Below, piece by piece: positions 13,542 through 22,885 of a stretch of 37,191 nt of DNA (position 1 is the stretch's first letter; each line of letters begins with the position of its first letter). The notes below the pieces were generated by a model, which saw only the letters and a list, made by a program, of their open reading frames with translations, had not been told where the DNA came from and did no database searches. Origin of the DNA: a bacterium (lineage in GTDB: Bacteria > Hydrothermota > Tepidihabitantia > B3-TA06); the NCBI GenBank assembly GCA_012517375.1, contig JAAYVC010000109.1, positions 1 through 37,191 on the forward strand, written 5' to 3'. The translations under genes were made by a program, and so were the position numbers.

Positions 13542-14838
13542 GTCCGCGTTCCTCAAAGTTTTTAAAGTTTCCGAAGCTCGCAAACCCCGGAGCAAAAAGA
13601 ATTATGTCTCCTTCAAGACTTGCCTTGAGGGCCGCATCGAGTGCGGCCCTCAAAGAGTCGACTATGATGTAGGAGGAGAACTGCGATTCGGCGCAGAGAA
13701 TTTCTGCAATCCTCTCGGAGTTTTCTCCGAAGAGTATCAAATATTTCGCCCTTTCCTTGACACCTTTTATGAAAGGATCCAGAGGCAGGTTCTTCTCGGT
13801 TCCGCCCGCTATTATCACTGAAGATTCCTCAAAGCTTGTTACGGAATAATAAAAAGCCTCCGGGTTAGTGCACATTGAATTGTTGTATACCTTTCTTCCC
13901 TTCAACTCGCCCAGGAATTCCATTCGATGCGGAAGTCCTTTGAAACGCTTGAGGCCCTTTTGCATCTGCTTGGGTTCAACGCCCGCTTGCGAAGCGGCGG
14001 CAATTGCTGCCAGCGCATTTGCGACATTGTGCATCCCCGGCAGAGGAATATCTTTTATTTCAGAGACTTTTGTTTCCTTTATATACAAACCGCCATTCTT
14101 CGTATAGGCATCAGCGGTGTCGTCACGAAGCGAGAAGAGAACTTTCCTGGAGCGGATGCTTTCGATATTGTTCATCGTGGTGTTATCGTCGCGGTTCAAT
14201 ATCGCAGAATCATTTTGTGCTGCGTTTTTAAAAAGCGACAGCTTTAGGTTGACGTAGTCCTCGTTGGTGTGTCTGTTCAGGTGATCTGCCGTTATATTTG
14301 TGATAACTCCGACATCGGGTCTGAATTCGGGGCATCTTTCAAGCTGGAAGGTAGATATCTCGATAACGTATACTTCCTGTATTGACAGGGAAAGAGCCTC
14401 TGAAAAGGGATTTCCGGGAGCTATATTCCCTCCGCAGAAGACCTTTCTTCCTGCAGCCTTGAGAATTTCTGAAATCCAAGCGGTTGTCGTGGATTTGCCG
14501 TTTGTTCCGGTCACGGCGATCGTAAACGGCCTGCCGAGTTCCTTCCACACGAATTCTATCTCGTCCACCATTGGAACCCCTTCCCTGTCGAGTGCCTTTA
14601 CCCATTCCAGTTCGTTCGAGATGCCCGGACTTTTTATTATAATTCCGGCTCTGGCAAGCGAGTCAGGTGTTTCAAGCCGTACAACGTTCTTTTCTCCAAG
14701 CGTACCTGCGACGTATCTGTTCAGGAACGCTTCAGGATTTTCATCGTAGAGAAGAATCTCTTTTGCGCCTTTATCCAAAAGATATGCGAGTATGCTTCGG
14801 CCGACCCTGCCTAAACCCAAGATTCCTATTCTTTCCAT
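13498..14838 (-). CDS. murD: UDP-N-acetylmuramoyl-L-alanine--D-glutamate ligase
   Basis: Adds D-Glu to the growing stem peptide. It begins with the short nucleotide-binding block GILGLGRVGRS (5-15), and the Mur-ligase P-loop TGTNGKSTT lies at 110-118. The central FQLERCPEFRPDVGVITNI and C-terminal ILFAPGFASFGNFKNFEERG blocks fit MurD. ATG 14838 shares its A with the TAA stop of mraY (TAATG), with AAGGTGAG just upstream; the longer reading from 14925 would run through the end of mraY. The length is 446 residues. Its last 44 bases overlap ftsW. Confidence 0.96.
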   Translation of the reverse strand: MERIGILGLGRVGRSILAYLLDKGAKEILLYDENPEAFLNRYVAGTLGEKNVVRLETPDSLARAGIIIKSPGISNELEWVKALDREGVPMVDEIEFVWKELGRPFTIAVTGTNGKSTTTAWISEILKAAGRKVFCGGNIAPGNPFSEALSLSIQEVYVIEISTFQLERCPEFRPDVGVITNITADHLNRHTNEDYVNLKLSLFKNAAQNDSAILNRDDNTTMNNIESIRSRKVLFSLRDDTADAYTKNGGLYIKETKVSEIKDIPLPGMHNVANALAAIAAASQAGVEPKQMQKGLKRFKGLPHRMEFLGELKGRKVYNNSMCTNPEAFYYSVTSFEESSVIIAGGTEKNLPLDPFIKGVKERAKYLILFGENSERIAEILCAESQFSSYIIVDSLRAALDAALKASLEGDIILFAPGFASFGNFKNFEERGHAFIQEFREYEKRI

Positions 14839-15926
14839 TATCTCACCTTCAATGTTGCAAGACCTGCCAGAGCGAAAAGAATTCCCCATATCCAGAAGCG
14901 TACAACAATTTTGGATTCCGCCCACCCGACCATCTCGAAATGGTGGTGCAGGGGCGCTTTCTTAAAAAGTCTCTTCTGTCCCTTGCTAGCCCTGAACCAG
15001 ATTATCTGGAGTATTACGGATAACATCTCGAGCACGAAAACGCCTCCGATTATCGCAAGGAGTATCTCCTGCTTAACCACTATCGCGATAAATCCAAGAA
15101 GAGCTCCCAGAGGAAGGGAGCCAGTATCACCCATGAAAATCGAAGCCGGGTGTGCGTTGAACCACAAGAACCCGAGTCCTGCACCCACGACTGCCGCGCA
15201 AACAACAGCCATCTCGCCGGCTTTGGGTATAAAGAGAACATTCAGATATTCGGCGATCTTGACGTTACCCGCGACATATGCGAGCGCGGCGAACGCTGCA
15301 GCGGCGATAGCTATGAGTCCTATCGCAAGACCGTCGAGGCCGTCTGCGAAGTTGACTGCGTTGCCCGCACCTACAACTATGAAGCTAGTGAATAAGATGT
15401 AGAAGATTCCCATCTGTACAACGTAATTCTTGAAAAAGAGAACGTTTGTGCAGCATCTGAGGGACTCGCTTTCAGGGAAGAAGTAAAGGTAAAGACTTAC
15501 TCCGAGTGCGAGTATGGATTGGCCGAGAAATTTCCAGCGTTTTTTGAGTCCCCTCTTATGCTTGCGAAGCTTGGTGAAGTCATCAAGAAAACCCAGAACG
15601 CACATCCCAGCAAGTATGATCAGAGAAAGCACGACATACGGATTAGTCAGGTCGGCAAACAAGAGCAGTGAAAATATGACTGCTGCTACGATGAGTATTC
15701 CGCCCATAGTGGGAGTGCCTGCCTTCTTGCGGTGAGTGTCCGGAAGCTCTTCGTATATCTCCTCGCCTATTCCGAGCCTTTTTATTCTTCTTACAACGGG
15801 TCTTCCGAAAATAACGATAACGAGTATGGCGAATCCTGCGGCGAGCGCAGCGCGGAACGTTATGTAGCGAAACAGATTCGCCTGAGAGAACACTGGTAGG
15901 AGCCATTTTGAGAGAAGATAGATCAT
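14838..15926 (-). CDS. mraY: Phospho-N-acetylmuramoyl-pentapeptide transferase
   Basis: The integral membrane enzyme that joins UDP-MurNAc-pentapeptide to undecaprenyl phosphate, giving lipid I. Conserved cytoplasmic motifs are present: the Asp pair in GFLDDFTKL, NFADGLDGLAIG, FMGDTGSLPLG and the late HHH motif KKAPLHHHFE. About ten hydrophobic segments alternate with these loops. Its length of 362 is normal. The start ATG 15926 overlaps the murF stop (ATGA), and the stop overlaps murD (TAATG), so translational coupling is likely in both directions. Confidence 0.98.
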   Translation of the reverse strand: MIYLLSKWLLPVFSQANLFRYITFRAALAAGFAILVIVIFGRPVVRRIKRLGIGEEIYEELPDTHRKKAGTPTMGGILIVAAVIFSLLLFADLTNPYVVLSLIILAGMCVLGFLDDFTKLRKHKRGLKKRWKFLGQSILALGVSLYLYFFPESESLRCCTNVLFFKNYVVQMGIFYILFTSFIVVGAGNAVNFADGLDGLAIGLIAIAAAAFAALAYVAGNVKIAEYLNVLFIPKAGEMAVVCAAVVGAGLGFLWFNAHPASIFMGDTGSLPLGALLGFIAIVVKQEILLAIIGGVFVLEMLSVILQIIWFRASKGQKRLFKKAPLHHHFEMVGWAESKIVVRFWIWGILFALAGLATLKVR

Positions 15927-17248
15927 GCGGTTCCCCAGATCAGTGAAACGATATCCTCAAGAGCGCACGCTCTTGAGCCTTTTACTAGAACCGAAGCGCC
16001 TGGAAGCAGCCTCTTCCTTAGCTCTTCAGCCGCTTCAATTTTATCTGGTATTACCATAACGCCTTCATGCGGAGGATAAAGCTCAGAGTGCGGTCCTGTT
16101 ATGATAACTAGGTCTGCAGTATCCCGGGCCATTTCTATTATCTCTTCATGATACTTGGATGATTCCTTGCCGAGTTCGAGCATTGCGCCTAGGACTGCGA
16201 TTCGGGGCGCAGGGAACAGCGTCAAGAGCCCGAACGCTTCCTTCATTGATACAGGATTAGCATTGTAGCAATCCATGAGGAGATGCATATCGCCTATGTC
16301 TCTTCTTTCGAGTCTCCATTTTTCAGGTTTTACTTCGGAAAGTACGGTCGCCGCCTCTTCAAGGGTTATCTCAAAGCCTCCAACTGCAACCGAGAGTGCA
16401 GCGACAGCGTTTGCAAGATTTGCCGCTCCTAGAAGGGGAAGCCTGAAAGCTTCGCCCATGAACTTGAAAGATGTACCTTCCATTCCATACTTAACTTCTA
16501 CAGGCGTGAATTCAGTATTGTTCTGAACAGCAAATGTACGGGTCTCCATGCCTGCTTGTTGAGCCCTTTTCAGTAGTTCCGGATAATCGCTGTTTAAAAA
16601 CAGCACGCCTTTGTTTCGAGTTACAGCTTCGCCAAGCTCCCATTTTGCTTCCAATACATCCTCAAGGGTTCCAAGTTCTTCCAGATGGCCTGGTCCCACA
16701 TTTGTTATTAAACCATGAGTAGGTTTTGAAATATCGCAGAGCCTGGTTAGTTCGCCTCTTGCACTGATACCGGCCTCAAGTATGGCAATTTCGACTTCTT
16801 CGTCAATCTCCAATATGGACAAGGGAAGACCTATTAGGTTGTTTCGGTTACCTTTGTTCGCAAAGGTCTTATATCTTACGTCGAGCAGAGCCTTCAGAAT
16901 GTTTTTTACCGTTGTCTTGCCGTTAGTTCCGGTAATCACGATTACCGGAATATCCAGGGTTGATCTGTAAGCCTTTGCAATCTCGCCGAGAGCTATCAGA
17001 GTATCCTTGACTGATATAGTTCTCGGCAAACCAACAGGATTTGATACAATACAGCTTATGGCGCCTTTTGCGAAAGCGTCCTCTACAAAGTCGCCGCCGT
17101 CGTAATACGGACCCTTGAGTGCCACAAAGAGCTCTCCCTGCGCCATGGTCCTTGAGTCTGTCGAGACGCCGGTCGGCTTAAGGGTCAAATCCTCAAGGCC
17201 CAGAGGGGTGCCTGAAGTTGCCTTGATTATCTCTTCAAGGGAGAGCAT
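15923..17248 (-). CDS. murF: UDP-MurNAc-tripeptide--D-alanyl-D-alanine ligase
   Basis: Adds D-Ala-D-Ala to complete the UDP-MurNAc-pentapeptide. The P-loop VITGTNGKTT lies at about 104-113, with the family blocks GNRNNLIGLPLS and LLMDCYNANPVSM downstream. ATG 17248 is chosen because AAGGAGG sits 5 bases upstream and the next residues (MLSLEEII) fit the family N-terminus. A reading from 17335 would extend deep into murE. The length is 441 residues. It overlaps the murE stop by 14 bases and mraY by 4. No ddl gene for D-Ala-D-Ala is seen in the window. Confidence 0.96.
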   Translation of the reverse strand: MLSLEEIIKATSGTPLGLEDLTLKPTGVSTDSRTMAQGELFVALKGPYYDGGDFVEDAFAKGAISCIVSNPVGLPRTISVKDTLIALGEIAKAYRSTLDIPVIVITGTNGKTTVKNILKALLDVRYKTFANKGNRNNLIGLPLSILEIDEEVEIAILEAGISARGELTRLCDISKPTHGLITNVGPGHLEELGTLEDVLEAKWELGEAVTRNKGVLFLNSDYPELLKRAQQAGMETRTFAVQNNTEFTPVEVKYGMEGTSFKFMGEAFRLPLLGAANLANAVAALSVAVGGFEITLEEAATVLSEVKPEKWRLERRDIGDMHLLMDCYNANPVSMKEAFGLLTLFPAPRIAVLGAMLELGKESSKYHEEIIEMARDTADLVIITGPHSELYPPHEGVMVIPDKIEAAEELRKRLLPGASVLVKGSRACALEDIVSLIWGTA

Positions 17249-18692
17249 CAACGGCCTCCTTCGCGACTTCCTTGTCGTCGAAGTGAATCTTTTCTGTTCC
17301 GAGAATCTGATAATCTTCATGACCTTTGCCTGCAACGAGAAGCACGTCGTCCTTTTCTAGAAATCTTACCGCTGCGTGTATGGCTTCCCTGCGGTCAACG
17401 ATGACAGTATTGTTATTCCCGTCAACCCCCGCAAGAATCTCTCTGATAATTTCATCAGGATTCTCCGTGCGCGGGTTATCCGACGTGACGAATACGTAAT
17501 CGGAGAGGCCGGAAGCGATTCTGCCCATCATCGGACGCTTTCCCTTATCCCTGTCTCCGCCGCATCCGAAAAGGGTGATAACGCGGCGCGGAGCAAGCTC
17601 TCTGGCAGATTTTATTAGGCGCTCGAGTGCATCCGGTGTGTGGGCGTAGTCCACAAAGATGAAAAAACCCTTGTCGTTCTCAACCTCCTCGAACCTGCCC
17701 GGAACGCATTTAAGAGCTTCAACGCCTATCTTCAATGTTTCTGGTTCGATACCCAGAGTGAGGGCGGCTCCTGATGCAGCGGCAAGATTGCTTATGTTGT
17801 GGCCACCCGGGAGCCCCAGGAAGCAGGGGAGAGCCAGACCTCGATAATGTATTACGGCTGCCGAACCTTTGATGGTCGAGTATTCGAGTTCCACCCACAA
17901 ATCGGCTCCTCTTCCGGAGGTTGAGTAGGAAACTACCCTTTTTCCATTGAGTCTTTCAATAAGCTCAAGACCTGTTTGATCGTCCGCGTTGACTATTGAA
18001 ATACCCTCTTTCTTGATATTGTCAAACAGCTTGAATTTGGCCGCCTTGTAGGAGTTCATGTCTTTGTGAAAGTCAAGATGATCCTGGGTAAGGTTAGTGA
18101 ATACGGCTATATCCACATCAAGCCCCCAGACCCTGTCCAATTCAAGAGAATGCGAAGAAATCTCCATTGCAACCGTGTCGCATCCTTTATCCTTCATCCC
18201 TTTTAGTATATTCCACAAATCAGCGCTTTCCGGAGTAGTATGCGAGAGCTTTTCCCAGCTCTCCCCGTTAAAAAAACCGGTTGTGCCGATGACTCCTGTT
18301 TTTCTGGAGCCGGCTCTTAATATACTCTCCAGAAGATACGTTATTGTAGTTTTTCCGTTGGTTCCAGTAACCCCAATGATAGTCATCTCCCGGTCAGGAT
18401 ATCCTGTAAAACATGCCGAGGCCTCAGCCAGAAACTTGCGGGCATCATTGATTTTAATTCTTGCTTTGAAATCCGGCAAGTCTTCAATTGATTCAGAAGC
18501 GATGGCCGCCGCGCCGCTTGCCGACGCTTCCTTAGCGAAACGGCGGCCATCGGTCCTAAGGCCTGTGATTGCTACGTACAAAGCTCCGTCTTGAACCGTT
18601 CTTGAATCATAACTCACCGACTTCAAATCAAGCTCCTGGCTGCCTTCATAACTTTCGAACCGTACGCGCTTGAGAAGCTCACCTAGCTTCAT
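17235..18692 (-). CDS. murE: UDP-MurNAc-L-Ala-D-Glu--meso-diaminopimelate ligase
   Basis: Adds the third stem-peptide residue. The P-loop GVTGTNGKTT is at 107-116, and DNPRTE begins at 405. The DNPR motif is the known signature of enzymes that select meso-diaminopimelate rather than L-lysine, so the wall is probably of the mDAP type, as in most diderm bacteria. ATG 18692 overlaps the ftsI stop (ATGA) with AAGGAA upstream; an earlier reading from 18803 lies inside ftsI. Its length of 485 is normal. Confidence 0.96.
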   Translation of the reverse strand: MKLGELLKRVRFESYEGSQELDLKSVSYDSRTVQDGALYVAITGLRTDGRRFAKEASASGAAAIASESIEDLPDFKARIKINDARKFLAEASACFTGYPDREMTIIGVTGTNGKTTITYLLESILRAGSRKTGVIGTTGFFNGESWEKLSHTTPESADLWNILKGMKDKGCDTVAMEISSHSLELDRVWGLDVDIAVFTNLTQDHLDFHKDMNSYKAAKFKLFDNIKKEGISIVNADDQTGLELIERLNGKRVVSYSTSGRGADLWVELEYSTIKGSAAVIHYRGLALPCFLGLPGGHNISNLAAASGAALTLGIEPETLKIGVEALKCVPGRFEEVENDKGFFIFVDYAHTPDALERLIKSARELAPRRVITLFGCGGDRDKGKRPMMGRIASGLSDYVFVTSDNPRTENPDEIIREILAGVDGNNNTVIVDRREAIHAAVRFLEKDDVLLVAGKGHEDYQILGTEKIHFDDKEVAKEAVDALP

Positions 18693-20416
18693 TGTGCAGT
18701 TCCTTCGCTTGCCGCAAGCGATTGCTGGTCTTCGAGAGCTTTTATCCGTATGTCCTGATATTTCGGGAGTCTCAAGGTGCGCTCCATAATATTCTTGAAA
18801 CAAGGAGCGGCAATCTCTCCTGCGAAGCGACCCAGCGCGGGTTCGTCAATGACTACGACCGCAAGAAGCTTGGGTTCTTTTCTTGGAAGAAATCCTGCGA
18901 ATGAAGCGGTGCTCAAAGTCGCAGAATAGCCCACGCCCGGGACCGATTTCTCCGCGGTGCCTGTCTTGCCGCAAATCTCAATCCCTTTTATCCTGGCGGA
19001 AGTTCCCGTTCCCTCATCAACGACTTTCTCGAGAATCTCTGCAATCTGCTCAGTGGTTTCTTTCGAGAACACCCTGCGAAGCACGTTATCCTTGCTTTGA
19101 AATACAATCCTTTCATCTTGTTCAATCTTCTTTATAAGTCTCGGAGCGTGAAAGACGCCGCCTGAAGCGAATGTAGAGTATATAGCCGCAAGCTGCAGCG
19201 TAGTCAGGGAAAGACCCTGTCCGAATGCGTTGTTGGTCAGACGCAGCTCGGTCATCTTGGATGCAGGATCGAGTTTGCCGCTGGCTTCTCCAGGCAGACC
19301 TATACCTGTAGGAATGCCGACACCCAAAAGCCTTGAGACCTCGTAAAATCTTGTCGTGCCGCACCTGAGCGCCAGTTTGGCAGTACCGATATTGCTCGAT
19401 AGAAAAAACACCTCGTCAAAGGTAAAACCCGCTCTTCCGTGAATATCGGAGATTTTTCTGCCTTGAACTATTACGCCGTCTCCCGTAGGTATATACTCGC
19501 TTCTTTTCGCCAGGCCGTCCTCAATACATATTGCGGCTACTACGGGCTTATAAACAGAACCGGGTTCAAATTCGTCGGTTACAACGCCTACATTCCAGAG
19601 TTCCTTGGGGTAGCTTGCGAATCGTTGCGCAGAGAAGTCGGGATAATCAACCATCGCAAGAATCTCTCCGTTCCGGGGGTCCATTACCACGCAGTATCCG
19701 CGCCTTGCCTTGAACGAATCGCATGCAGATTTAAGTTCTTCGTAGGCGATGCTTTGAATGTCCAGGTCGATTGTCAAGGTCACGTCCGCGCCGTTCACGG
19801 ATTCCTTAAGAGGGTATGCCGTCGTGGGGTGTTCTCTTCCGAGGGCGTCCCGCTGATACGTGGCCCATCCCAGTTCTCCGGCAAGGACGGAGTCCATCGC
19901 GAATTCAATACCTGCAAGTCCTTTATGCTCTCCTCCCACAAAGCCTACTATACTTCCAGTAGCTTCTCCCCACGGATATATCCGCCGGGCTTCCTCCTCG
20001 ATGTTAATCGCATTCAGTAACCCTTCGCTTTCGAGCTCTGCCTTAAGTTTGCATGATTTCTCGAAGTCGCATTTTCGGGCAAGCCAGAAGAAGCTTTTAC
20101 GGGTTCTTAGATTCCTTTCGATGATGGTTGAAGAACCTATGCCGTATTTCGAAAGGATTTTTGCCGCCTTTGGTATATCAGCGACATATTGAGGAAGCGC
20201 ATACACTGAAGCTGCCTTTTCGTCTGTAACCAGTGGTACGCCGTTACGGTCGAATATCTTTCCCCTTTGCGGAAGAAGCTCTATGTGTTCCTCGTGCTGC
20301 GCTCTTGCTCGTTCAGCGAATTTTGGTCCAAGAATTATCTGCATATAGAAGGCGTATCCGAGAACGCCTAGCGCAAGAAAGCAAAGCACGCCTGCTGTAA
20401 ATTTAACGCGGCCCAT
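18689..20416 (-). CDS. ftsI: Septal penicillin-binding protein (FtsI/PBP3-type transpeptidase)
   Basis: The membrane-anchored transpeptidase that cross-links septal peptidoglycan. A single transmembrane helix (about 8-30) is followed by the dimerisation domain with the RGKIFDRNGVPL motif (51-62). The transpeptidase domain has all three active-site motifs: SVYK with catalytic Ser287, SSN (340-342) and KTG (484-486). No PASTA domain follows. ATG 20416 is chosen because it overlaps the upstream ftsL-like gene by 14 bases and leaves a normal short cytoplasmic start; the length is then 575. Its partner SEDS protein FtsW is encoded five genes downstream. Confidence 0.94.
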   Translation of the reverse strand: MGRVKFTAGVLCFLALGVLGYAFYMQIILGPKFAERARAQHEEHIELLPQRGKIFDRNGVPLVTDEKAASVYALPQYVADIPKAAKILSKYGIGSSTIIERNLRTRKSFFWLARKCDFEKSCKLKAELESEGLLNAINIEEEARRIYPWGEATGSIVGFVGGEHKGLAGIEFAMDSVLAGELGWATYQRDALGREHPTTAYPLKESVNGADVTLTIDLDIQSIAYEELKSACDSFKARRGYCVVMDPRNGEILAMVDYPDFSAQRFASYPKELWNVGVVTDEFEPGSVYKPVVAAICIEDGLAKRSEYIPTGDGVIVQGRKISDIHGRAGFTFDEVFFLSSNIGTAKLALRCGTTRFYEVSRLLGVGIPTGIGLPGEASGKLDPASKMTELRLTNNAFGQGLSLTTLQLAAIYSTFASGGVFHAPRLIKKIEQDERIVFQSKDNVLRRVFSKETTEQIAEILEKVVDEGTGTSARIKGIEICGKTGTAEKSVPGVGYSATLSTASFAGFLPRKEPKLLAVVVIDEPALGRFAGEIAAPCFKNIMERTLRLPKYQDIRIKALEDQQSLAASEGTAQ

Positions 20417-20645
20417 CGGCTTCCCAGGCGTAGTAAAGTCCGAGCGTTCTTGCGCGCGGCTCAAGATTGGTGACCAGAAGCTCCCTTGATAAAGCAATTT
20501 GCTCACGCTCAAGCCTTTCTTCTAGTATGCCTGAACGACGCTCAAGATCGGTCACCTTTTCGGCAAGATTGTTGTTGGTAAAACGCATCCATACATAACC
20601 TAGCATCAGTACTACGAATACCAGAACGAATAATATCTTTTTCAT
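20403..20645 (-). CDS. ftsL: FtsL-like small bitopic division protein
   Basis: An 80-residue protein with one transmembrane helix (about 4-22) and then a heptad-patterned, charged coiled coil (about 27-58). That is the architecture of FtsL/DivIC proteins, which bridge FtsQ, FtsB and FtsW-FtsI at the septum. The position between rsmH and ftsI is the standard ftsL position. ATG 20645 overlaps the rsmH stop (ATGA). FtsL sequences diverge strongly, so the call rests mainly on architecture and location. Confidence 0.85.
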   Translation of the reverse strand: MKKILFVLVFVVLMLGYVWMRFTNNNLAEKVTDLERRSGILEERLEREQIALSRELLVTNLEPRARTLGLYYAWEADGPR

Positions 20646-21514
20646 ATTTTTTCAATTATCCTTAATCTTGCACTGCGTGAAGCGGGATTGCGAGCCTGCT
20701 CCTCGCGAGATGCAACTATCGGTTTGGAATTAACTTTTCTATAAGTGCCTTGAGACTGGGCTTCCTTGTATATCTTTTTGACGATTCTTGCCTCAAGGGA
20801 GTGATAGTCGATTACGGCAACCCTGCCGCGAGGCGCAAGATGCGCTACAGCCGAATGCAATCCTTTTTCAAGGTTTGAAAGTTCGTCATTTACCGCTATC
20901 CTTAAAGCCTGAAACACCCTCATGGCTGTTTTGCGGAGTCTGTTTTCGCCGACCACCTCCCTCAACATCTCGCGAAGATCTGCAGCCGTCTTGATACTGT
21001 GCCTTTTCCGGGATACTTCATCCGCTATCCTTCTTGCGAAGGGTTCCTCCCCGTAATCCCTGAATATCTTTTCCAGGACATCTCTCTTTTCTTTCCTTAT
21101 AATATCCAGAGCGGTAGGCCCGGAAGCCTGCGTATCGAATCTCATGTCGAGTTTTCCTTCACCCTGGTAGCTGAAGCCGCGATCAGGGCTCCTGACCTGA
21201 TGCCAGGAGAGTCCGAGATCGAACACGACTCCATCCACTTCCTTAATTCCCTCCGCACTAAGAACCTCGTCCATAAACTTGAAGTTCTTATTGTGGAGGG
21301 AAAGCCGCTCGGCAAAGCACGCCAGTTTACGGCCTGCGTGGGCGAGGGCTTCCCCATCCATGTCCAGTGCGATGAGCATTCCTGCTCCCTTCTGCAGTAG
21401 CGCCTCTGCGTGTCCGCCTCCCCCCAGGGTTGCGTCCACGTACACTCCTTTTGGAGTCGGCGAAAGCGCCGTCACTATCTCCTCAAGCAAGACAGTCTTG
21501 TGAAATTCATCCAC
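20642..21514 (-). CDS. rsmH: 16S rRNA (cytosine-1402-N4)-methyltransferase
   Basis: The SAM-dependent enzyme (MraW) that methylates C1402 in the decoding centre of 16S rRNA. The SAM-binding motif DATLGGGGHAEALL (about 28-41) and the HKTVLLEE start are typical, as are FDLGLSWHQ and VIDYHSLEARIVK. Its length of 290 is normal. The start is GTG 21514, overlapping the STAS-gene stop by 8 bases. It is the standard early dcw-cluster gene that normally follows mraZ directly; here one extra gene separates them. Confidence 0.96.
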   Translation of the reverse strand: MDEFHKTVLLEEIVTALSPTPKGVYVDATLGGGGHAEALLQKGAGMLIALDMDGEALAHAGRKLACFAERLSLHNKNFKFMDEVLSAEGIKEVDGVVFDLGLSWHQVRSPDRGFSYQGEGKLDMRFDTQASGPTALDIIRKEKRDVLEKIFRDYGEEPFARRIADEVSRKRHSIKTAADLREMLREVVGENRLRKTAMRVFQALRIAVNDELSNLEKGLHSAVAHLAPRGRVAVIDYHSLEARIVKKIYKEAQSQGTYRKVNSKPIVASREEQARNPASRSARLRIIEKI

Positions 21515-21869
21515 CGATACTCTTCAGGACGCTCATTCTTGCGATACTCTTAAGGGCGGCCTGCTTTGAAGGATAGATATCGAATGGATGAAATCCGTAA
21601 AGACTGAAGAGCGAGTTGACATAATCCGAAACATTAATGAGCTTTATATCTCCGCCGCGTTCGTTGAATCGGCGCTTGAAATTAATAAGTTCTGGAATGA
21701 GATTGGTTTGTATATGTTCGCATCCGGCCAGGTTCATAACAACGCTGAGTTCATTTGCAGCCAAAAGACCCGTAAAAAGAGCCTCAAGTTCCTCGAAGTC
21801 TTCTTCAGTGACCTCGCCGGAAAGATTTACGAAGGGCACGCCTTCGGTACGTTTAAGTATAGTTTTCAT
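21507..21869 (-). CDS. STAS-domain protein inside the dcw operon
   Basis: A 120-residue single-domain protein. The order of strands and helices, VPFVNLSGEV then SVVMNLAGCEHI then NERGGDIKLINVSDYVNSLF, matches the STAS fold of anti-sigma-factor antagonists such as SpoIIAA and RsbV. In those proteins a Ser in a DSxG loop is phosphorylated by a kinase. Here the aligned loop is QTNL (54-57), so the Asp and Gly are lost and the Ser is replaced by Thr55. It could still be phosphorylated or be a degenerate scaffold. It overlaps mraZ by 4 bases and rsmH by 8, so it is a true operon member. No partner kinase or sigma factor lies in the window. Confidence 0.75.
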   Translation of the reverse strand: MKTILKRTEGVPFVNLSGEVTEEDFEELEALFTGLLAANELSVVMNLAGCEHIQTNLIPELINFKRRFNERGGDIKLINVSDYVNSLFSLYGFHPFDIYPSKQAALKSIARMSVLKSIGG

Positions 21870-22330
21870 GGGTTTCTCCCTTGAGAAAGGTACTTTTCAA
21901 GGTTTTCGGAATCCTCCTCCTGACTCTGTTCGGATTCTGAGTCGAACCGGACGAACGTCTCAGGATTCCATATCTCAAAATGACTTATGGCTCCACTGAT
22001 CACGACTTCCGCCTCAACAGAGGCGTATTCGATTAAATGACGGGGAAGCATGATGCGGCCCTGGGAGTCGAGCTCCACCTCTGCGGCAGCAGCTGCCCGG
22101 CGCCGCATGAAGCGTCTGGTTTCTTTCTTGTGTCTCGGGATAGCTAGAAGCACCTCATCCTCATATCCCTCCCACTCCGACAGGGGATGAACCTCTATCT
22201 CGCCGTCATAGCCTTTAGTGAGAACCAGGGTGCGCTGGTTCGCGGCGTCAAGTGCCCGGCGGAACTGGGCGGGTATGGCTACCCGGCCCTTATGGTCTAC
22301 CGAATACCTGAACTGTCCACGAAATCGCAT
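21866..22330 (-). CDS. mraZ: Transcriptional regulator / division protein MraZ
   Basis: The first gene of the dcw cluster. MraZ is an AbrB-like DNA-binding protein that represses its own operon in characterised bacteria. The 154-residue protein holds two SpoVT/AbrB-type repeats: RGQFRYSVDHKGRVAIPAQF (about 3-22) and a second with ELDSQGRIMLPRHL, each with the D-x-x-G-R-(V/I)-x-(I/L)-P signature. ATG 22330 is chosen because the family begins M-F-x-G; an in-frame ATG at 22351 would add seven residues and start only about 4 bases after the predicted transcription start. The C-terminal tail is acidic (Glu/Ser/Gln). It overlaps the STAS gene (ATGA). Confidence 0.93.
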   Translation of the reverse strand: MRFRGQFRYSVDHKGRVAIPAQFRRALDAANQRTLVLTKGYDGEIEVHPLSEWEGYEDEVLLAIPRHKKETRRFMRRRAAAAAEVELDSQGRIMLPRHLIEYASVEAEVVISGAISHFEIWNPETFVRFDSESEQSQEEDSENLEKYLSQGRNP

Positions 22331-22335
22331 TTCTG

Positions 22336-22360
22336 CCCCACGAATCACCATTCATAACCA
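22336..22360 (-). promoter_or_regulatory. Candidate MraZ operator: three TGG boxes at 10-bp spacing
   Basis: Reading the minus strand, TGGTT (22360), TGGTG (22350) and TGGGG (22340) recur exactly every 10 bases with 5-base gaps. E. coli MraZ is known to bind TGGGN repeats separated by 5 bases. The boxes lie between the -10 box and the mraZ start, so bound MraZ would block transcription. A further TGGGG is in the promoter spacer (about 22381). Confidence 0.7.
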
Positions 22361-22361
22361 C

Positions 22362-22389
22362 ATTGTATGCATTTTTCCCCACTTGTCAA
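22362..22389 (-). promoter_or_regulatory. dcw operon promoter (mraZ)
   Basis: TTGACA (22389-22384), 16-bp spacer, TACAAT (22367-22362); the predicted +1 is about 22355. It is the only strong promoter seen upstream of the 18-kb run of minus-strand division genes. Confidence 0.8.
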
Positions 22390-22429: not shown

Positions 22430-22885
22430 TAAGTCCCGCAATTGCTTTTACTTGCATCTAAATTGACGATTTTCTCAATTTTCCGTATGTGTTCGTGCAT
22501 TCGTGAATTGTAAAGTTTTCCACATTTTGGGGTCGAAAAAAGAGGCTTTCCCACCGGTGAGTTAAAGGGAAAAAGTTGTGTGTTGAAGATTGCAAATACC
22601 CCTTCCCTTGATGGGAAGGGGTATTCTCCGGGAGGAGAATTGGGGTAAGGTGAAGTAGCCTCCCGGGGAGACATGGCTGAATTTCATTCCGCAAGGGTCG
22701 AACGAAGTTCGACAGACGCTCATCTAGAGCGTACACCTCCACCCAGCCTCCCCCATCAAGGGAAAGGAGAGGGGTATTCTGCATCGTTCAATCTTGGAAA
22801 AAAAACTTAGATAAGGGACCGACCTCAGCGTGCCCCTTGGGATAAGGCTTTATCCCATAGGGTATTAGGTCGGCACGATATTTAA
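22430..22885. repeat. Non-coding, hairpin-rich spacer between ispG and mraZ
   Basis: No credible gene is seen in 22390-22936. Instead there are several inverted repeats: AATACCCCTTCCC (22595-22607) with its perfect complement at 22613-22625; GTCGAAC (22697-22703) with GTTCGAC (22707-22713); ACGCTC (22716-22721) with GAGCGT (22727-22732); and GGGATAA with TTATCCC at about 22838-22855 inside an outer CCGACCT/AGGTCGG pair. CCCTTGATGGGAAGG-like text occurs twice in opposite orientation. It resembles dispersed intergenic repeat DNA. Confidence 0.6.

Follow-up and report, generated by a model that had tools for sequence, protein, structure and literature searches.

The DNA analysed here, referred to as the window, is a stretch of 37,191 nucleotides from a bacterium of the candidate division WOR-3/'Stahlbacteria'. 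Its minus strand carries a dcw cluster headed by mraZ (Table 1), and ispG (gcpE) and an EPSP synthase gene lie upstream of mraZ on the same strand. The MraZ protein matches PF02381 in two stretches (103.8 bits against a cut-off of 23) and TIGR00242 with 110.3 bits against a cut-off of 98.35; its matches to five narrower NCBIfam MraZ models fall below the cut-offs of those models. It is related to the MraZ of solved structure 1n0e (6.3e-24), and 13 aligned relatives all keep residues D12, R16, D88 and R92. In E. coli MraZ the corresponding arginine, R15, presumably matters for DNA binding. The gene is a genuine, full two-repeat MraZ. The two Mur ligase genes and mraY are presumed to form the downstream part of the operon.

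Table 1. Features of the mraZ promoter region and dcw cluster in the window.
Feature	Position	Strand	Evidence
-35 hexamer TTGACA, mraZ/dcw promoter	22384..22389	-	sequence match
Spacer box TGGGG between -35 and -10	22377..22381	-	TGG invariant in 7/7 same-family genomes
-10 hexamer TACAAT	22362..22367	-	sequence match
MraZ box 1, TGGT (putative)	22357..22360	-	phased motif; TGG invariant in 7/7 family genomes
MraZ box 2, TGGT (putative)	22347..22350	-	phased motif; TGG invariant in 7/7 family genomes
MraZ box 3, TGGG then G (putative)	22337..22340	-	phased motif; TGG invariant in 7/7 family genomes
mraZ, dcw cluster transcriptional repressor, 154 aa	21866..22330	-	PF02381 4.6e-30; TIGR00242 7e-32
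STAS-domain gene between mraZ and rsmH	21507..21869	-	PF13466 5.4e-08
rsmH (mraW)	20642..21514	-	PF01795 1.5e-90
ftsI-type penicillin-binding transpeptidase	18689..20512	-	PF00905 2.8e-67
Two Mur ligases (murE, murF by order) and mraY	14838..18803	-	PF08245, PF00953, PF10555

A STAS gene between mraZ and rsmH is found in 26 of the 46 loci that are long enough to tell, spread over nine families. Anti-sigma antagonists carry a DSSG phosphoserine motif; the corresponding stretch of these STAS proteins reads HIQT, HINY and the like, so that the protein may be non-phosphorylated and may be tied to division. The gap between ispG and mraZ holds a second feature, at 22595-22778, which is bounded by imperfect terminal inverted repeats (arms 22595-22615 and 22752-22778). 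Ten further partial matches to it, of 24-77 bases and 82-96% identity, occur elsewhere in the genome, and it has the appearance of a small, non-autonomous mobile element.

The mraZ promoter is located in the same 606-nt gap. It is a sigma-70-type match, TTGACA-16-TACAAT, with 11 of 12 consensus bases. Read on the minus strand, the -10 hexamer ends at 22362 and is followed directly by TGGT, TGGT and TGGG, the T residues of which lie at 22360, 22350 and 22340, giving steps of exactly 10 bp. The first box begins 29 nt after the start of TTGACA, and mraZ, which starts at 22330, lies directly behind the boxes. A further TGGGG occupies the promoter spacer and precedes box 1 by 21 bp, not 20. The first-pass annotation had described this arrangement, with three TGG(T/G) boxes at exact 10-bp spacing just after the -10 hexamer and another TGGGG in the promoter spacer, and both elements are found as described.

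The translation start of mraZ is most likely the ATG at 22330 (MRFRG...). An alternative in-frame ATG at 22351 overlaps box 2, which leaves the start not fully settled. Box 3 stands just before the ATG at 22330 and may double as its ribosome-binding site; in the aligned sequences of one family of relatives (f3) the nearest in-frame ATG falls inside box 3. Both positions would suit a role for the phased GTGG boxes in RNA or translation, as G-rich ribosome-binding sites or as the context of the mraZ start codon, with no DNA-binding protein involved. We regard this as highly improbable. The likely transcript start lies at box 1 or downstream of it, and a fourth box sits in the promoter spacer; a period of 10 bp is not a multiple of three; repeats in direct orientation have no means of pairing with one another; and in some families (for example at loci L115 and L117) a distinct purine-rich leader follows well downstream of the boxes. 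The mraZ leader RNA folds no better than its shuffles (z 0.89).

Conservation of the phased boxes

The motif TGGK-N6-TGGK-N6-TGGK matches once in the window, where 0.02 matches are expected from shuffled sequences. In the whole 2.54-Mb genome it matches twice, and a backwards control pattern matches six times. The triple motif is therefore not rare at the genome scale, and it is position and conservation that carry the argument. The second match lies inside a long open frame, and for this reason no wider MraZ regulon is claimed. A class-wide scan with a stricter form of the motif, which the window's own site does not satisfy, gave matches in 35 of 61 genomes, many of them in mraZ upstream regions. 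Short TGGG arrays with 10-bp steps were also seen away from the mraZ position on three contigs of one genome (G011; C2, C14 and C24), where they are probably a 10-bp tandem repeat.

Upstream regions of mraZ were collected from the class and the phylum and anchored on the start of MraZ by profile. MraZ is present in 122 of the phylum's 147 genomes, and the analysis covered 108 of them. In 76 of the 108, three or more TGG follow one another at exact 10-bp steps upstream of mraZ: 70 of these genomes have a longest exact run of three boxes and 6 have one of four. A further 24 genomes reach two boxes and 8 have one. Among 107 distinct regions, 97 hold a TGG pair at 10 bp, compared with 4 that hold one at 9 bp and 4 at 11 bp, and 74 have three boxes in phase, as against about 0.3 per 107 regions in dinucleotide shuffles. 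The peak at 10 bp persists when families are counted instead: 28 of the 31 families have a TGG pair at this distance, and 25 include at least one member with three or more phased boxes. The array also keeps its place relative to the promoter. All 76 genomes with at least three boxes have TTGAC no more than 60 nt upstream of them, and in 62 of the 76 the first phased box begins 27 to 33 nt after the start of TTGACA, which positions the array on or just behind the -10 hexamer.

Conservation is sharpest in the window's own family. Seven genomes of this family agree at every one of the 12 TGG positions in the four boxes and at 11 of the 12 positions of the promoter hexamers. Invariance drops to 18 of the remaining 35 bases from the promoter to the start, and to 11 of 81 bases farther upstream. 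An eighth genome of the family (G003) gave no MraZ match, and its rsmH lies near a contig end. Outside the phylum, two Rokuibacteriota loci also have TGG-N7-TGG-N7-TGG upstream of mraZ. Phased boxes at the mraZ promoter or just behind it are thus shared by the family, by most of the class and by most of the phylum. The comparison of mraZ upstream regions that the first-pass annotation proposed therefore came out in its favour: loss of the boxes in relatives, which it had named as evidence against the operator, is absent from the family and confined to a minority of the phylum.

These data bear directly on chance. A fortuitous TGG triplet in a G-rich leader would agree with the two genome-wide matches to the triple motif, no more than the reversed control gives, but with exact phasing conserved at a single promoter in most of the 31 families it is scarcely credible. 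A chance origin is contradicted by the comparative data.

Variants of the putative operator and the spacer box

Fewer than three exactly phased TGG are found in 32 of the 108 genomes, among them all 16 examined members of family f6, all three of f5, both of f19 and the single genomes of f8, f14 and f12. Most of the f6 and f5 genomes retain two phased boxes plus others. Two is the largest number of exactly phased boxes in f6, and many upstream regions of this family have an extra TGGG near or between the promoter hexamers, some with a further box at 12 bp. Loci of f6 such as L019, L021 and L030 show a distinct form, with TGGGGATATAG overlapping the -10 hexamer and leader boxes of the GTGGA or GTGGT type at 12- and 10-bp steps. 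In f5 (L054-L056) the 10-10 pattern is replaced by TGG steps of 10, 21 and 42 bp, a spacing that would fit the omission of one or more turns. Family f12 reads TGG, CGG, CGG at 10-bp steps. In f14 and f19 neither an array nor TTGAC was found in the stretch examined.

Genomes without mraZ offer a weak control: three boxes occur in none of 15 rsmH upstream stretches, many of which look coding and one of which (G003) ends at a contig edge. In families f17, f22 and f23 all listed genomes are without detectable MraZ and most of those searched have rsmH, an apparent loss of the regulator.

The spacer box is a feature of more restricted range. In the window's family its TGG is fixed 21 bp before box 1 (7/7 genomes), and in family f11 a spacer TGG box recurs at 20 or 21 bp. 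Over 25 family-distance pairs, the helical phasing of the spacer box was not significant (resultant 0.31 at a period of 10.5; 2634 of 20000 random sets attained this value). Phasing across families is thus not supported, and the spacer box is claimed for the window's family only. There, the 21-bp-spaced spacer box and the possible use of box 3 as a ribosome-binding site are lineage-specific extras, and modest variants. A more elaborate arrangement for this family, one that we consider rather unlikely, is that one MraZ ring holds the spacer box together with the three boxes behind the -10 hexamer, two helical turns away, and so clamps the -10 hexamer, with box 3 doubling as the mraZ ribosome-binding site, so that operator and translation start would have evolved as one element.

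Comparison with described MraZ sites

An E. coli MraZ operator at Pmra was reportedly described by Eraso and colleagues in 2014. In our E. coli K-12 control (L098) TGG-N7-TGG-N7-TGG lies between the promoter and mraZ, and the two sites have in common three TGG boxes at exact 10-bp steps in the interval from promoter to mraZ. They differ in three respects. The E. coli boxes are all TGGG, whereas two of those in the window are TGGT; counted from the first base of TTGACA, the E. coli boxes start at about 40 nt and the window array at 29 nt, directly behind the -10 hexamer; and the extra box in the promoter spacer sets the window's site apart from that of E. coli. The resemblance to E. coli noted in the first-pass annotation therefore holds for the 10-bp TGG array, but not for the strict TGGGN box in every repeat, from which boxes 1 and 2 depart. 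As TGGT boxes are common across much of the phylum, we take TGGT as a preference of the lineage and TGGG as no criterion for all MraZ sites.

Sites in two other groups resemble the window's in part. According to excerpts of PMC7761207, Burkholderia cenocepacia MraZ shifts a fragment with four 7-nt repeats separated by 3-nt gaps, a 10-bp period, and these repeats follow the -10 hexamer and lie over the start site 'as in E. coli'. The window shares the 10-bp period and the position downstream of the -10 hexamer and over the start site (in the window, the expected one); the gel shift belongs to B. cenocepacia, which also differs in having four repeats and a leader of about 100 nt. In excerpts of PMC8475190, MraZ of M. 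genitalium is reported as a repressor of the cluster that encodes it, and the Mollicutes MraZ site is given as repeats of AAAGTG[T/G] (Fisunov et al. 2016, as cited there). As far as these excerpts go, both systems have GTG-cored direct repeats upstream of mraZ, but the Mollicutes core is AAA followed by GTGT or GTGG, whereas the window has GTGG or ATGG without a constant AAA.

A different kind of element has been put forward for the same promoter in S. aureus, where, in the part of PMC11796246 available to us, G-tracts are proposed to form a G-quadruplex that controls mraZ. The window contains four tracts of GG or longer within 45 nt and could in that respect be read likewise. A quadruplex, however, needs no exact loop length, yet the TGG pair is kept at exactly 10 bp in 28 of the 31 families; furthermore, the boxes read GTGGTGAA in many families, with only two G in a row, and boxes 1 and 2 of the window have GG only. 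We therefore give a G-quadruplex very little weight.

A putative operator for MraZ

The analysis demonstrates the sequence of the three boxes, their phasing and conservation, the promoter-like hexamers, the identity of the MraZ encoded behind them and the match to E. coli. On this evidence the boxes are very probably the operator of an MraZ autorepressor. Because the link to MraZ in the window is drawn from sequence, another regulator of the dcw cluster that uses the same boxes might be considered; this would be a most surprising outcome, given that mraZ itself is the gene behind the array and that the parts of the literature consulted ascribe such repeats to MraZ in E. coli, Burkholderia, mycoplasmas and B. 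subtilis. Autorepression of the dcw operon by MraZ is thus the best reading of the site; binding, the start site, repression and the extent of the operon are what we infer from it. The operator proposed in the first-pass annotation gains support from the comparison of relatives and from the genuine MraZ downstream; that the whole division operon is autoregulated, as it further suggests, is a prediction from the site.

MraZ is an AbrB-fold protein, described in publications as a ring in other species. In the proposed mechanism each helical turn would offer MraZ one GTGG(T/G)-like box to contact, so that three boxes spaced by 10 bp would all face the same side of the helix. The array begins two bases behind the -10 hexamer; if transcription started near 22355, the boxes would span about -5 to +19. 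As the boxes lie on or behind the -10 hexamer and over the expected start site, bound MraZ would block or exclude RNA polymerase. The cluster would be transcribed less, from mraZ through the STAS gene and rsmH to the wall and division genes that follow, and the outcome would be a negative feedback loop.

The site is an ordinary one, with a layout that is known from E. coli and recurs through a little-studied phylum. A search of the open-licence PMC literature found no paper joining mraZ and WOR-3. Under the reading given here, an uncultured phylum would share a regulatory circuit known from a small number of cultured bacteria. The reading also suggests that an MraZ site built on GTGG with a 10-bp period beside the -10 hexamer has been kept over very long times. 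The more than 100 operators collected, with variants that include 21-bp spacing, extra spacer boxes and GTGGA forms, may serve as natural material for testing how phased DNA is read by a ring protein.
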